Part shown: positions 57,952 through 63,063 of the stretch, piece after piece
How the letters are laid out: every line of letters starts with the position of its first letter
Position numbering within the stretch: position 1 is the stretch's first letter
DNA from: Bacillota bacterium
GTDB lineage: Bacteria; Bacillota; Sulfobacillia; JAIMAT01
Direction of reading: 5' to 3'
Length of the DNA stretch: 64,000 nucleotides
Assembly: GCA_029960955.1 (NCBI GenBank)
Contig: JASBVS010000028.1
Location: forward strand, 62,001-126,000
Translations under genes and position numbers: made by a program
The notes under the pieces: model-generated
Seen by the model: only the letters and a program-made list of their open reading frames with translations
Databases searched by the model: none
What the model was told of the DNA's origin: nothing

Positions 57952-58502
57952 GCGACCCCGCCTCCGCACGGGTCCCCGTGCCGCCGGTGCTGGCGCCGGG
58001 GCTTCGGCTGCTGGTGGTGGGCTACAACCCGGGCAGGCGGAGCGGCGCCACCGGCCACCACTTCGCCGGGCCGGGCAACCGCTTCTGGCGGATGCTGGCG
58101 GAGTCGGGCTGGACGCCCCTCGAGCTCCGGCCGGAGCAGGACCGGGAGCTGCCGCGGTACGGGATCGGCATCGTCAACCTGGTCGACCGGGTGACGCCCG
58201 GCTCGGCCGACCTGGCCTGGGCGGAGATGCTCGAAGGGGGCCGGCGGGTCCGGGAGCAGGCCGAGCGCTGGCACCCGCGGCGCCTCGCCTGCCTGGGCAA
58301 GGACGTGGCGCGCGCCGTCCTCGGCCTGCCGCGCTCCGCCCGCCTCGACTGGTCGGTGGAGGCCGGTCAGCTGGAGTGCTCCTGGGGTCGCCTCCCCGTC
58401 GCCTGCCTGCCCAACCCCTCGGCCCGCAGCACCGTCCCGCCCGCCTTCCAGCTGGCGCTCTGGAGCGCGCTGGCCGCCGCCTCCCGAGGGGTCGCCAGGT
58501 AA
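57948..58502 (+). CDS. mug: G/U mismatch-specific DNA glycosylase (Mug/TDG)
   Basis: The 184-residue product has the Mug motif VVGYNPGRRSGATGHHFAGP with catalytic Asn in GYNPG, then NRFWRML, and the closing motif CLPNPSARS. It removes uracil or thymine from mismatches with G, useful in GC-rich DNA. It overlaps the GH gene by 4 bp (GTGA). Its last 136 bp overlap the convergent ferric reductase-like gene. Confidence 0.88.
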   Translation: MSDPASARVPVPPVLAPGLRLLVVGYNPGRRSGATGHHFAGPGNRFWRMLAESGWTPLELRPEQDRELPRYGIGIVNLVDRVTPGSADLAWAEMLEGGRRVREQAERWHPRRLACLGKDVARAVLGLPRSARLDWSVEAGQLECSWGRLPVACLPNPSARSTVPPAFQLALWSALAAASRGVAR

Positions 58503-59173
58503 CGCGTCGCCGCGAGGGCGAGGAGCAGGCCGCCGCTGACCGCGTAGAAGAGACGGAAGGCCGGGGTGTCGCTTCCTGCCAGGACGCCGTGGAACCAGGC
58601 CAGCGCCCAGGCGACGGCGGCCAGGCGGTGGAGGGGCAGCCAGAGCCGGCGGGCGACCTGCGGGTTCCAGCGCCGCGCCATCCTCGGGCCCAGCCCCGCG
58701 CTCGCCGCCGCCACCAGCGCCAGGTAGGCGCCCAGCACGCCGGCGGCCACCGGGCCGCTCCGGTAGCCGGAGGCGCCCGGCAGGACCGCGCCGCGCCAGC
58801 CCACCTGGACGAAGGGGTCGAGGGCGAGCGCGGTCGCGTGGGCCGCCACCAGCACCAGGGCGGCCACGGAGAGGACCGTGTGCGTCCGGTAGAGGAAGTC
58901 CGCCGAGGGCCGGCGCCGCCCCAGGCGCCAGGGGTGGGAGAGCCAGATCCCCACCATCACCGCCAGCTCCAGCAGCAGGTAGGCCGTCATCCCCGCCGCC
59001 CGCGCCACGATCCAGGGGAACATGCGGCTTCCGACCAGCGGCGCGGCCAGCGTCGCCAGGAGGTAGCCCAGCAGCCAGCCCGCCGTCAGCAGGAGCAGGA
59101 GAGCCCCCAGCGAGACGCCCTGCCGCTCTTCCGCGACGATTTCGGGAGCCGCCCGCAGATGGCGACCGCTCAT
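58367..59173 (-). CDS. Ferric reductase-like di-heme membrane protein
   Basis: The 268-residue product has six or seven membrane helices and a ferric-reductase-like domain. Two bis-His pairs fit two b-hemes as in NOX/FRE proteins: H-x13-H in HTVLSVAALVLVAAH, and H-x12-H in HRLAAVAWALAWFH. No cytosolic FAD/NADPH domain is present, so electrons must come from the quinone pool or a partner. ATG 59173 overlaps the apbE stop as ATGA. Its gene ends 136 bp inside mug on the other strand. It is unlikely to be MsrQ, since no msrP is adjacent. Confidence 0.8.
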   Translation of the reverse strand: MSGRHLRAAPEIVAEERQGVSLGALLLLLTAGWLLGYLLATLAAPLVGSRMFPWIVARAAGMTAYLLLELAVMVGIWLSHPWRLGRRRPSADFLYRTHTVLSVAALVLVAAHATALALDPFVQVGWRGAVLPGASGYRSGPVAAGVLGAYLALVAAASAGLGPRMARRWNPQVARRLWLPLHRLAAVAWALAWFHGVLAGSDTPAFRLFYAVSGGLLLALAATRYLATPREAAASALQSASWKAGGTVLRAEGLGRQATGRRPQEHSS

Positions 59174-60102
59174 GCCACCACCCTCCACATGAGGAAGGCT
59201 TCGAGCCCGGAGCTCCAGCCGAGCTCCCCTTCCTCCGTCACCCAGAGCGCGGCGAGCCGCTCGCGCTCCGCCAGCGTCGCGATCGCCGGCTCCCCCTCGA
59301 CGAAGAGCGCCTTCGACCAGACCTCGCACCAGGCGGGATCGGCGCCGACGACGGTCACGGCCAGGAGGCCGGAGTCGGCGGGCTCGCCGGTGCGCGGATC
59401 GATCAGGTGATGGACCGGCTCCTGCCCGGCCAGCCAGCGGCGGCGGCGGATGGAGGAGGTGCAGACCGCCCGGTCCCGGACGGCGAGGACAGCCACCGGC
59501 TGCTCGCCGCCCCGGGGGTCCTCCACGCCCACGTGCCAGCCGTCGCCCTGCGGCCCGCCTCCGCGGCAGTAGAGGTCGCCGCCGGCGTTGACCAGGAAGT
59601 TGGCGCTGGCCCTCGCCATCTCCCGGGCTGCCAGGCGGACCGCGTACCCCTTGCCGATGCCGCCCAGGTCGAGCGGCGCCCCCAGGAGCCGCAGCTGCCG
59701 CCGGCGCGGTCGCCGCCCGAGCCAGGGCGCGCGGCCGCTGGCGCGGGGCCTGCCGCGGGCGGCCGGGAGCCGGAGGGGCCCCCGCTCCAGGGGCAGCGTC
59801 CGGTCGTAGCCGATGCGCACCAGCGCCTCCAGCACGCGGGGGTCGAAGCGCCCCCCGGTGCGCCGCCAGGCGCGCCGGGCCAGGGCGACGACGTCGTAGA
59901 GCAGCGGCTCAACGGCCTGCCATGCGCCCCGGTTGGCGTTGAAGCGCATCAGCGGCGAGTCGGGGCGGAAGCGGGTGCAGACCCGCTCCACCTCGGCGAA
60001 GCGTTCCAGCGCCCGCGCCGCCGCCTGCTCGACGCCCGGCGAGGCGTCGAGGTCGCGGATCAGGATCTCGGTGGCCATGGCCTGACCGTGCCATTCGCTC
60101 AA
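59170..60102 (-). CDS. apbE: FAD:protein FMN transferase ApbE
   Basis: The 310-residue enzyme transfers FMN from FAD to Ser/Thr of exported proteins. Seen: FAEVERVCTRFRPDSPL, LGGIGKGYAVRLAAREM, NAGGDLYCRGG, IDPRTGEP, and VWSKALFV, where most ApbE have aDAlaTAlF, a variant I cannot place for certain. No clear signal peptide is visible. TTG 60102 has AAGGAAG at 8 bp. It lies 14 bp downstream of a small protein ending in TTTGAS and overlaps the ferric reductase gene. Its likely targets are the two small proteins. Confidence 0.88.
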   Translation of the reverse strand: MSEWHGQAMATEILIRDLDASPGVEQAAARALERFAEVERVCTRFRPDSPLMRFNANRGAWQAVEPLLYDVVALARRAWRRTGGRFDPRVLEALVRIGYDRTLPLERGPLRLPAARGRPRASGRAPWLGRRPRRRQLRLLGAPLDLGGIGKGYAVRLAAREMARASANFLVNAGGDLYCRGGGPQGDGWHVGVEDPRGGEQPVAVLAVRDRAVCTSSIRRRRWLAGQEPVHHLIDPRTGEPADSGLLAVTVVGADPAWCEVWSKALFVEGEPAIATLAERERLAALWVTEEGELGWSSGLEAFLMWRVVA

Positions 60103-60116
60103 GGGCGTCGCTTCCT

Positions 60117-60497
60117 TCAGCTCGCGCCGGTCGTCGTCTGGACCTGGGGCATGGCCATGGGCGGCAGGCTGGGCGGCGCGGCGGGCGGAGGAAGGGCGGC
60201 CGCCTGGCCCGCCACCTGCTCGACCTTCTGGCTCAACCGGTCCACCTGCGACTGCGCGGCGCGGATGCGGGCGTCCAGCTCCCGGGACTGCTCGAGGAGC
60301 TTCCGGGTCTGGGGCGGCAGCGCCGCCTGGACCGTCCTGCTCCGCGCGGCGGCGGGACGGGCCGGCTGGGGCGTGTGGCTGCCCGCCCAGGCGACCGCGC
60401 CGCCGAAGAGGGTGAGGGAGGCGGCCACCCAGCCGGCGGTCAGGCGCGCCAGCCGCTTTCGCCTCAGCTCCAGCGTTCTGCGCCCGTCAGGCCTCAC
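60117..60497 (-). CDS. Small anchored protein ending in an ApbE-type TTTGAS motif
   Basis: The 126-residue product (129 from GTG 60506) has a basic N-terminus and one membrane/signal helix (about residues 18-39). A helical, coiled-coil-like stretch follows (PPQTRKLLEQSRELDARIRA...VDRLSQKVEQVAG), then a Pro/Met-rich linker. The last six residues are TTTGAS, close to the ApbE target D-x-x-(S/T)-G-A-(S/T), with Ser as final residue and no Asp. GTG 60497 overlaps the preceding stop as GTGA. No FMN_bind domain is visible. Not a family I recognise. Confidence 0.62.
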   Translation of the reverse strand: MRPDGRRTLELRRKRLARLTAGWVAASLTLFGGAVAWAGSHTPQPARPAAARSRTVQAALPPQTRKLLEQSRELDARIRAAQSQVDRLSQKVEQVAGQAAALPPPAAPPSLPPMAMPQVQTTTGAS

Positions 60498-61012
60498 TGG
60501 CCCCACCCCTCGGAGCCCTCGTCGCCTTCGCCCGAACCGAAGAGCCAGAAGCCGCCGTCGCCCTGGTGCTCGCGCCCCTCGTGGCTCCCCCGGCTGGAGG
60601 AAGCGCCGGTGACGGTGTCGACGCTCGGCGCCTGCGTCTGGGCCTGCGTCTGTTGCTGCAGCTGCTGCTGTTGCTGAAGCTGCAGCGCCTGGAGCTGGGC
60701 CAGGCGCGACTTGGCGGCGGCCACCGCGGCCAGCTCCTGCTGCAGCTGCTGCTGGGCGGCGGCCAGCGCCTGCTCCAGCTGCTGCTCCCGCTGGTTGAGC
60801 GAGGCTACGGAGCGCTCCTCAGCCGTCACCTGCTGGGCCAGCTGGCTCTGCACCGCCGCCAGCTGGCTGGTCGAGAGGGCGGGCGAGGGCGAGGAAGAGA
60901 GGCTCGGCGCCGCCTGGACCACCCCCGGCGCCTGCCGGAGCGCGGCGGCGCCGCCTGCCACGAAGGCGCCCGCGGCGCCCAGCACCGCAAGCGTCCGTCC
61001 CACACGTGCCAT
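60494..61012 (-). CDS. Exported Gln/Ala-rich coiled-coil protein with DTVTGAS flavinylation motif
   Basis: The 172-residue product has an N-terminal signal/anchor helix (about residues 7-26). A long Gln/Ala/Leu-rich coiled coil follows (about 48-124), then DTVTGASSS at residues 132-140 (codons 60619-60593) and an acidic Gly-rich tail with two Trp. DTVTGAS fits the ApbE flavinylation consensus D-x-x-(S/T)-G-A-(S/T), with S138 as the FMN-accepting residue. ATG 61012 has GAGGAG 10 bp upstream. It is first in the operon with the second small protein, apbE and the ferric reductase gene. Confidence 0.65.
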   Translation of the reverse strand: MARVGRTLAVLGAAGAFVAGGAAALRQAPGVVQAAPSLSSSPSPALSTSQLAAVQSQLAQQVTAEERSVASLNQREQQLEQALAAAQQQLQQELAAVAAAKSRLAQLQALQLQQQQQLQQQTQAQTQAPSVDTVTGASSSRGSHEGREHQGDGGFWLFGSGEGDEGSEGWGQ

Positions 61013-61419: not shown

Positions 61420-63063
61420 TTGTTCCCTCATCCGCGCAGGCCAGGCCTCTACCGGCTCCTGGCGGTGCTGGCCTTGGCCGCCGTGCTGGCCTCCGGGTTG
61501 CCGGCGGGCCTCGCTTCCGCCCAGTCGCCCACACAGTTCACCGACATCCGGGGTCACTGGGCCGAGCCGTTCATCCTGGCCGCCCAGGCGGCCGGGGTGA
61601 TCACGGTGCCCGACGACGGGAGGTTCCGCCCGGACGATCCCACGACCCGCCTCGACTTCGCCGTCTGGATGGCGCGGGCGCTGGAGCTGCAGCCGGTCAC
61701 CCCCGCCAAGCCGCCCTTCACCGACTGGAACAGCGTGCCCTCCGAGGACCGGGGCCTGGTGGCCGCAGCGGTCCAGGCGGGCGTGCTCAAGGGGTACCCG
61801 AACGGCACCTTCCAGCCCAACCGCACGCTCAACAGGGCGGAGATGGGCGTCATCTTCGGACGCGCCCTGGAGAAGCTGGGCGTCACGCCGGAGTCCCGCT
61901 ACTTCTACGAGTTCGGCGACCACGACGCCATCCCGGGCTGGGCCGCCGAGGCCAGCGCGGCGGTCAAGGAAGGCATCATCCTCGGCCGCCCCTCGCAGCC
62001 GGGCCAGCTGGCGCTCTACGCGCCCTTCGCCACGACGACGCGCGCGGAGACGGTCACCATGCTGGTCCGCTTCATGAACGTCCGCTTCCAGCTGCTGGGC
62101 ATCCAGCCGGCGCCCAAGCCGGCGCCGCAGCCGGCGGGAACGATCGTGACCGGCTGGGCGACCGCCCAGGACCTCGCCTCGTTGAACCTGGGCGCCGACC
62201 GGATCAGCTGGGTGATCGCCTCGGGCTATACGGTCGACAGCTCGACCGGCGGGGCCGGGGCACTGGTGGGCGCCGACAGCCCGGCGCTCTTCCAGTGGGC
62301 GCGGGACCACCAGAAGCCGCTCCTGGTGCGGGTCAGCCTGATGGGCGGCCCGGCCATCCACACGGTGCTCGCCAATCCCCAGACGCAGGCCCGCCTCGTG
62401 CAGAACATCATGACCGTGGTCGGCCACGGCTACGGCGGCGTCAACCTCGACTTCGAGTACCTGCAGAACGCGGACCGGGACCTTTTCACCCAGTTCGCCA
62501 CGGCCCTGGCCCAGCAGCTGCACGCCCAGAACCTGCTCCTGACCATCGACCTGCCCTGGCGCGACCAGGCGAGCGCCAACAGCTGGGGACACGACTTCGA
62601 CTTCGCCGCCCTCGGCCGCGTAGCCGACTACCTGATCATCATGACCTACGATCAGCACTACGCGACCAGCGGCCCGGGACCCGTCGGATCGATCCCCTGG
62701 ATGCAACAGGGTCTCGGCTGGGCGGTCTCGCAGGCGCCCGCCCAGAAGATCCTCCTGGGCATCCCCGCCTACGCCTACGACTGGGCCAAGGGCGAGCCGA
62801 CGCGCGCCTGGTATATTGAAGGGGCGCTCAACCTGATCGCCCGCTACCACGCCCAGCCCATCGTCCACACGGACCTGGGCGAGACGCAGTTCTTCTACAC
62901 GGACAGCCAGGGCGTCCGTCACGAGGTCTGGTTCACCGACACCTCCGGCCTGGCGGCGAAGCTCGCCCTGGTGCAGCAGTTCCACCTGGCCGGCGCGGCG
63001 ATCTGGAAGTTCGGCTACGAGACGCCGGACTGGTGGGGCGTGATCCGCCAAGCGCTGCCCTGA
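61420..63063 (+). CDS. Exported SLH-domain protein with GH18 catalytic domain
   Basis: The 547-residue product has a signal peptide (residues 1-34, ending LASAQ) and three SLH repeats: FTDIRGHWAEPFI (about 40-90), FTDWNSVP...YPNGTFQPNRTLNRAEM (about 100-150), and a weaker third to about 220. A GH18 TIM barrel follows, with GVNLDFEYL (catalytic Glu about residue 346), LIIMTYDQHY and IWKFGYETPDWW. It resembles spore or wall GlcNAc hydrolases of the YaaH/SleL type. SLH domains bind pyruvylated wall polymer, made with csaB. TTG 61420 follows GGGGAGGT at 7 bp. Confidence 0.9.
   Translation: MFPHPRRPGLYRLLAVLALAAVLASGLPAGLASAQSPTQFTDIRGHWAEPFILAAQAAGVITVPDDGRFRPDDPTTRLDFAVWMARALELQPVTPAKPPFTDWNSVPSEDRGLVAAAVQAGVLKGYPNGTFQPNRTLNRAEMGVIFGRALEKLGVTPESRYFYEFGDHDAIPGWAAEASAAVKEGIILGRPSQPGQLALYAPFATTTRAETVTMLVRFMNVRFQLLGIQPAPKPAPQPAGTIVTGWATAQDLASLNLGADRISWVIASGYTVDSSTGGAGALVGADSPALFQWARDHQKPLLVRVSLMGGPAIHTVLANPQTQARLVQNIMTVVGHGYGGVNLDFEYLQNADRDLFTQFATALAQQLHAQNLLLTIDLPWRDQASANSWGHDFDFAALGRVADYLIIMTYDQHYATSGPGPVGSIPWMQQGLGWAVSQAPAQKILLGIPAYAYDWAKGEPTRAWYIEGALNLIARYHAQPIVHTDLGETQFFYTDSQGVRHEVWFTDTSGLAAKLALVQQFHLAGAAIWKFGYETPDWWGVIRQALP

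Follow-up and report, generated by a model that had tools for sequence, protein, structure and literature searches.

The stretch of DNA analysed here (the window) comprises 64,000 nucleotides (nt) from a Bacillota bacterium (GTDB lineage Bacteria; Bacillota; Sulfobacillia; JAIMAT01; GenBank assembly GCA_029960955.1, contig JASBVS010000028.1, positions 62,001 to 126,000 of the forward strand), and carries on its minus strand a tight operon that encodes, in this order, two small proteins (termed P1 and P2), the transferase ApbE, which attaches flavin mononucleotide (FMN) from flavin adenine dinucleotide (FAD) to proteins, and a membrane cytochrome. These genes probably form one operon for an electron relay whose flavins are held on the tails of proteins lacking a flavin-binding domain. 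The features that carry this reading are the following.

60494..61012, minus strand: P1, the first small protein, 172 amino acids (aa); open reading frame (ORF), paired with P2 in most orthologous loci
60599..60619, minus strand: DTVTGAS of P1, the full ApbE consensus, 34 residues from the C-terminus
60117..60506, minus strand: P2, small membrane-anchored protein, 129 aa, GTG start; based on the ORF and its orthologues
60117..60140, minus strand: QTTTGAS and stop of P2, with the predicted FMN acceptor Ser129 at 60120-60122
59170..60102, minus strand: apbE, FAD:protein FMN transferase, 310 aa, TTG start; PF02424, E-value 3.2e-54
58367..59173, minus strand: diheme Ferric_reduct/MsrQ-like membrane cytochrome, 268 aa; assigned from invariant His residues and predicted fold

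The P1 stop overlaps the GTG start of P2, 14 nt, including an AAGGAAG ribosome site, lie between the stop of P2 and the start codon of apbE (TTG), and apbE and the cytochrome gene overlap by 4 nt (ATGA).

The C-terminal motif of P2 and its conservation

An earlier note on this DNA, made from its letters alone, had described a small protein that stops directly after TTTGAS and has a Pro/Met-rich linker ahead of that motif, and both observations were borne out. Specifically, the minus-strand translation of 60117-60506 has the C-terminus ...APPSLPPMAMPQVQTTTGAS, and its end reads ALPPPAAPPSLPPMAMPQVQTTTGAS, followed by the stop (TGA at 60117-60119, TTTGAS at 60120-60137 and the preceding Gln at 60138-60140). 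The [ST]-G-A-[ST] core of the ApbE substrate motif is present as TGAS in both P1 and P2, and the position of the motif Asp, six residues ahead of the acceptor, is occupied by Asp in P1 and by Gln in P2.

Conservation of this ending was followed with the ApbE sequence as query, which has matches in 67 of 101 related genomes and yielded 80 loci from genome contigs (individual loci are given below by their L numbers). The P2 proteins of two congeners, 77% and 60% identical to that of the window, end in IQTMTGAS-stop and VQTTTGAS-stop, and all substitutions in the four TGAS codons across the three genomes of the genus are silent. In all, the apbE clusters of at least 31 distinct loci encode a P2-like protein whose TGAS is followed by 0-7 residues. 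These loci come mainly from Actinomycetota (Actinomycetes and Acidimicrobiia) and Bacillota, with a few from Chloroflexota, and mostly from metagenome-assembled genomes. Each of these proteins is anchored by a hydrophobic N-terminal segment and has a tail rich in Pro, and their genes usually end 5-176 nt upstream of apbE (the exceptions are L036, at 874 nt, and L171, where apbE lies on a different contig). In the alignment of 23 P2 proteins (A5), invariance is limited to G127, A128 and S129, while two Pro and the motif Thr are nearly invariant.

Given how short the motif is, TGAS at the terminus might have arisen by chance in a single species, but the probability of this is negligible, and it is refuted by the retention of the motif in both congeners and, across phyla, at 31 distinct loci. 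Of the 290 frames in the window that end in a stop and have 100 aa or more, only P2 has [ST]GAS no more than five residues from its end; the corresponding count in the 80 related loci is 28 of 3393 frames, apbE-adjacent proteins being counted in.

The proposal of the earlier note that an FMN acceptor motif stands at the very C-terminus holds in part. The motif is conserved at or near the C-terminus and linked to apbE across phyla, but the Ser is strictly the last residue in only six cases (the window's genus, L011, L021 and L023), and most P2 orthologues continue for 2-7 residues past it, with endings such as GxP, GG or VVP. The orthologue check of a terminal TGA(S/T), which had been set beforehand, therefore returned a near-terminal place as the rule, but neither the exact end nor the Gly; apbE is retained beside certain orthologues with a different ending, but the near-terminal position prevails. 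'Last residue' is one extreme of a range of 0-7 residues. In other loci the motif is degraded to TKAS, THAS, TRAS or TGGS, and some lineages retain just T-x-[AG]-S. In Streptomyces, Nocardia and Amycolatopsis (L042, L044, L049, L062, L065, L069) a TRSSGS-like motif occurs twice in each small anchored protein, one copy being C-terminal. At several of these six loci a P-type ATPase and a small Met-rich protein are also encoded close by, which hints at a copper link.

P1 consists of a signal or anchor segment, a Gln-rich coiled-coil, DTVTGAS and a 34-residue acidic/Gly tail, and its motif reads DTFTGAS and DTTTGAS in the congeners. Most loci with P2 also have P1, and nearly all have the diheme Ferric_reduct/MsrQ-like cytochrome. 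The motifs of the two small proteins co-vary in some loci, with DTWTGSS in both at L015 and HTVTGAS in both at L142 and L143, and in most loci the Asp is changed to His or Gln in P1 and P2 alike. These patterns bear on the idea that flavinylation is confined to P1, which has the full DTVTGAS, and that QTTTGAS at the end of P2 is a relic or poorly modified. Within the genus it is indeed P1 alone that retains the Asp, a residue called essential for the ApbE of V. cholerae (PMC10722498), but the P2 motif is the more constant of the two across the family, the P2 TGAS is kept without a P1 motif in L011, L023 and L029, the replacement by His or Gln affects both proteins at most loci, and the codon changes in the P2 TGAS of the genus are silent only. 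This idea is accordingly given a low probability.

ApbE and the missing FMN_bind domain

The transferase scores 184.7 bits against PF02424 (cut-off 25.6), and a phmmer search with it matched 13 solved ApbE/FMN transferase sequences, the best at 4.4e-26. Its H-x-x-D-P motif, HHLIDPRTG, aligns to SHVIDPQTG of 3pnd, the best solved match, and the His of HHLIDPRTG is a candidate for the catalytic residue, as the putative counterpart of V. cholerae His257. The gene is single copy, being the sole match in the genome. A signal peptide or lipoprotein anchor was not found in ApbE, nor was an in-frame ATG, GTG or TTG upstream, the longest frame starting at the TTG; its relatives likewise begin just ahead of the AMAS/AMAT segment, the first conserved segment in the alignment of N-termini. 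The metal ligands of T. pallidum ApbE are Ala162, Asp284 and Thr288 (PMC5655446), to which the following residues align.

59653..59655, minus strand: ApbE Gly150, aligned to metal ligand Ala162
59323..59325, minus strand: ApbE Glu260, aligned to metal ligand Asp284
59311..59313, minus strand: ApbE Lys264, aligned to metal ligand Thr288

The triad reads G/E/K in 80 of 107 aligned rows, a concerted change, and A/D/T in 13 of 107, counts which do not represent frequencies in nature, the rows having been picked by likeness to the query. The 13 A/D/T rows group together in the tree, and most have signal-peptide-like N-termini. Some relatives have a second, more distant pair of apbE and cytochrome genes (G050:C24, G071:C93, G087:C50 and G079:C15).

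The classical substrate domain of ApbE, FMN_bind (PF04205), has no match in P1, in P2, in the 23 P2 orthologues or in the whole genome. Among the 101 relatives, the 21 genomes with the cytochrome family all have ApbE (21/21) and rarely FMN_bind (3/21), whereas FMN_bind is found in 45 of the 46 other genomes with ApbE (Fisher exact test 2.5e-12, which ignores phylogeny and is a description more than a probability). By this pattern ApbE appears to be without its classical substrate here, which leaves the tail proteins as the natural candidates. Neither P1 nor P2 has a Pfam or NCBIfam domain above cut-off, weak matches being coiled-coil noise, and a hidden FMN_bind or other known domain in them was rejected on these scans.

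The tails could alternatively be recognition peptides, whose T-x-[AG]-S terminus docks P1 and P2 on ApbE, on the cytochrome or on an envelope partner while ApbE modifies another target. Pro-rich tails commonly mediate binding, and in relatives the motif degenerates while a near-terminal T-x-x-S stays. Docking leaves unexplained, however, why P1 has the exact ApbE consensus and why TGAS is kept in 31 P2 loci; moreover, no other good acceptor exists among the operon products, and FMN_bind is missing from the genome. It is regarded as unlikely, though a little less so than flavinylation of P1 alone.

Architecture and topology of the tail proteins

The AlphaFold2 model of P2 consists, in order, of a transmembrane (TM) helix, a 39-residue helix and a 26-residue coil, which correspond to the following features.

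60384..60443, minus strand: predicted TM or signal-anchor segment of P2, N-terminus inside (positive-inside rule)
60198..60314, minus strand: predicted stalk-like 39-residue helix of P2, residues 65-103; predicted local distance difference test (pLDDT) about 94-96 over most of it
60138..60197, minus strand: Pro/Met-rich linker of P2, ALPPPAAPPSLPPMAMPQVQ; predicted coil (residues 104-129 coil in the AlphaFold2 model)

The suggestion that a flavin could swing on such a tail agrees with the predicted coil, but the FMN itself stays a prediction. With regard to orientation, the mean net charge around the hydrophobic segment of 59 apbE-adjacent small proteins is +3.1 on the N-side and 0.0 on the C-side, the N-side being the more positive in 88% of them, and by the positive-inside rule P2 is predicted to have its N-terminus inside and to expose its tail on the outside. 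A consistent motif for twin-arginine translocation (Tat) was sought among the P2-like proteins and not found: 54% of them have an RR pair close to the anchor, but it is not conserved, and Tat export is not claimed.

An apparently cytosolic ApbE would call either for flavinylation of an outside tail ahead of export or for a tail that points inward. Under the second option the tails would face the cytosol beside ApbE and relay electrons to the cytochrome from a donor in the cytosol, which would suit both an ApbE without signal peptide and the NuoF-like protein that adjoins the cluster in many relatives. The charge distribution described above places the tail outside in 88% of the 59 proteins, however, and the N-terminus of P1 resembles a signal peptide, so that inward-facing tails are considered improbable, to about the same degree as flavinylation of P1 alone.

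The membrane cytochrome and its electron donors

Four His residues of the cytochrome (H98, H112, H182 and H195) are invariant in 38 sequences, with the spacing H-x13-H and H-x12-H. The AlphaFold2 model is helical and confident (pLDDT 85), and the structures it resembles most are cytochrome b561, Dcytb, NOX proteins of bacterial and human origin (SpNOX, NOX5) and STEAP1, with Z-scores of 11-14, a measure that alone is weak for helical bundles. The protein is nevertheless taken to be a heme carrier, because transmembrane heme electron carriers head the list of matches and the His pattern is consistent with this. At the level of profiles, PF01794 (Ferric_reduct) matches 5 of 14 orthologues (best 5.4e-9) and not the window cytochrome itself, and a profile search of the cytochrome against the PDB sequences returned no match.

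As to possible donors, a scan of 80 ORFs that neighbour the actinobacterial loci (alignment A2) gave 10 NuoF-like proteins (PF01512 and PF10589) and 9 HisKA kinases. PF01512 was not found in the window's genome, which is 93% complete, and a NuoF-like electron donor was dropped for this organism on that ground.

Over some 136 nt (58367-58502) the cytochrome gene overlaps a convergent gene for a mismatch-specific uracil-DNA glycosylase-like protein; two congeners retain a similar C-terminal extension.

Neighbouring genes

On the other side of the operon, a divergent gene at 61420-63063 encodes a protein with S-layer anchoring (SLH) and glycosyl hydrolase 18 parts. At about 63800 an HD-domain phosphohydrolase-like gene has an apparent one-base frameshift, the other frame continuing with FFARYYMYQQ..., which may be a sequencing error or mark a pseudogene.

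Comparison with known flavinylation systems

In the systems of the FMN_bind proteins NqrC, RnfG and PplA, which work with an extracytosolic ApbE, an acceptor motif likewise sits in an exported or membrane protein encoded beside apbE and a membrane electron-transfer protein. Here, in contrast, the genome is without FMN_bind, the motif lies on a tail predicted to be disordered, and ApbE is without a signal peptide. Closer in its membrane component is the MsrQ-like flavinylation system of Actinobacteria, which, according to the survey by Meheust et al. 2021 (PMC8238504), likewise combines a six-helix diheme Ferric_reduct-like cytochrome with apbE. The same survey reports a NuoF-like protein in 31 MsrQ-like clusters, as in many relatives here, and gives FMN_bind genes as typical of these systems, whereas tail proteins stand in their place in the window's genome. 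It counted only clusters whose target gene had a signal peptide or lipidation site, and no description of tail-type substrates was found in the parts of it that were covered.

In FMN_red proteins, Ala mutants have proven that flavinylation occurs naturally at sites within an unstructured C-terminal extension (Huang et al. 2024, PMC11334425), but there the flavin goes back to a folded flavin-binding domain, which P1 and P2 do not have. A seven-residue C-terminal peptide is also sufficient as an ApbE acceptor in the Flavin-tag (Tong et al. 2021, as summarized in the review PMC12052999); the tag is, however, engineered and has the Asp and the preferred Thr, whereas the P2 tail is natural and has Gln and Ser. 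Finally, the cytosolic ApbE of Klebsiella pneumoniae likewise lacks a signal peptide, but its client is a soluble fumarate reductase of the cytosol (PMC12052999), in contrast to the predicted export or membrane anchoring of P1 and P2. No description of domainless tail-type ApbE substrates was found in the open-licence literature.

Proposed flavin-tail relay

In the proposed relay, the ApbE without signal peptide would transfer FMN from FAD onto the TGAS Ser of P1 and P2, both of which would be seated in the membrane with the N-terminus inside and the tail outside. The FMN would sit at the tip of the Pro-rich tail, and the helical stalk would keep it clear of the membrane. This FMN would pick up electrons from the heme closest to the outer face and pass them to an extracytosolic acceptor or to a second flavin tail, the cytochrome being fed by the quinol pool or by a cytosolic dehydrogenase (NuoF-like in many relatives).

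Several observations weigh against this relay: (i) P2 is without the motif Asp, which is reported as essential for the ApbE of V. cholerae (PMC10722498), (ii) P2 uses Ser, an acceptor less efficient than Thr according to a review (PMC12052999), (iii) tails without the Gly (TKAS, THAS, TRAS, RSSGS) would stretch the known motif, (iv) ApbE is apparently cytosolic while the tails are predicted to be outside and (v) two loci with close ApbE relatives, L007 and L147, have neither a tail protein nor the cytochrome near apbE. On the other side, that review cites one study in which changing the motif Asp to Ala had only a minor effect, and the ApbE of V. cholerae accepts seven-residue tags at the C-terminus with the acceptor as their last residue (PMC12052999, PMC10722498).

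A more far-reaching version of the relay can be put forward tentatively, and is thought more doubtful than probable. A cytosolic ApbE subfamily with a metal site rebuilt around Glu and Lys, and possibly with a changed metal dependence, would flavinylate the extreme C-termini of disordered tails that are later exported, and pairs of tails would serve as a flexible wire from the cytochrome to extracytosolic acceptors. This would explain part of the orphan apbE genes; the acceptor signal would have drifted to TKAS or RSSGS in some actinobacteria, and the ApbE motif in its present form would be much too restrictive.

Domainless tail proteins, combined with an ApbE without signal peptide, are easily missed by surveys of the kind cited above, and could close part of the gap. 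If the relay is real, natural flavinylation can do without a folded flavin-binding domain, short flexible tails can carry redox flavins, and flavinylation may come before export, making a separate FAD exporter unnecessary. Given that it recurs beside ApbE in many distantly related bacteria, most of whose genomes are without FMN_bind, the tail arrangement looks like an overlooked way to hang a redox cofactor outside the membrane.
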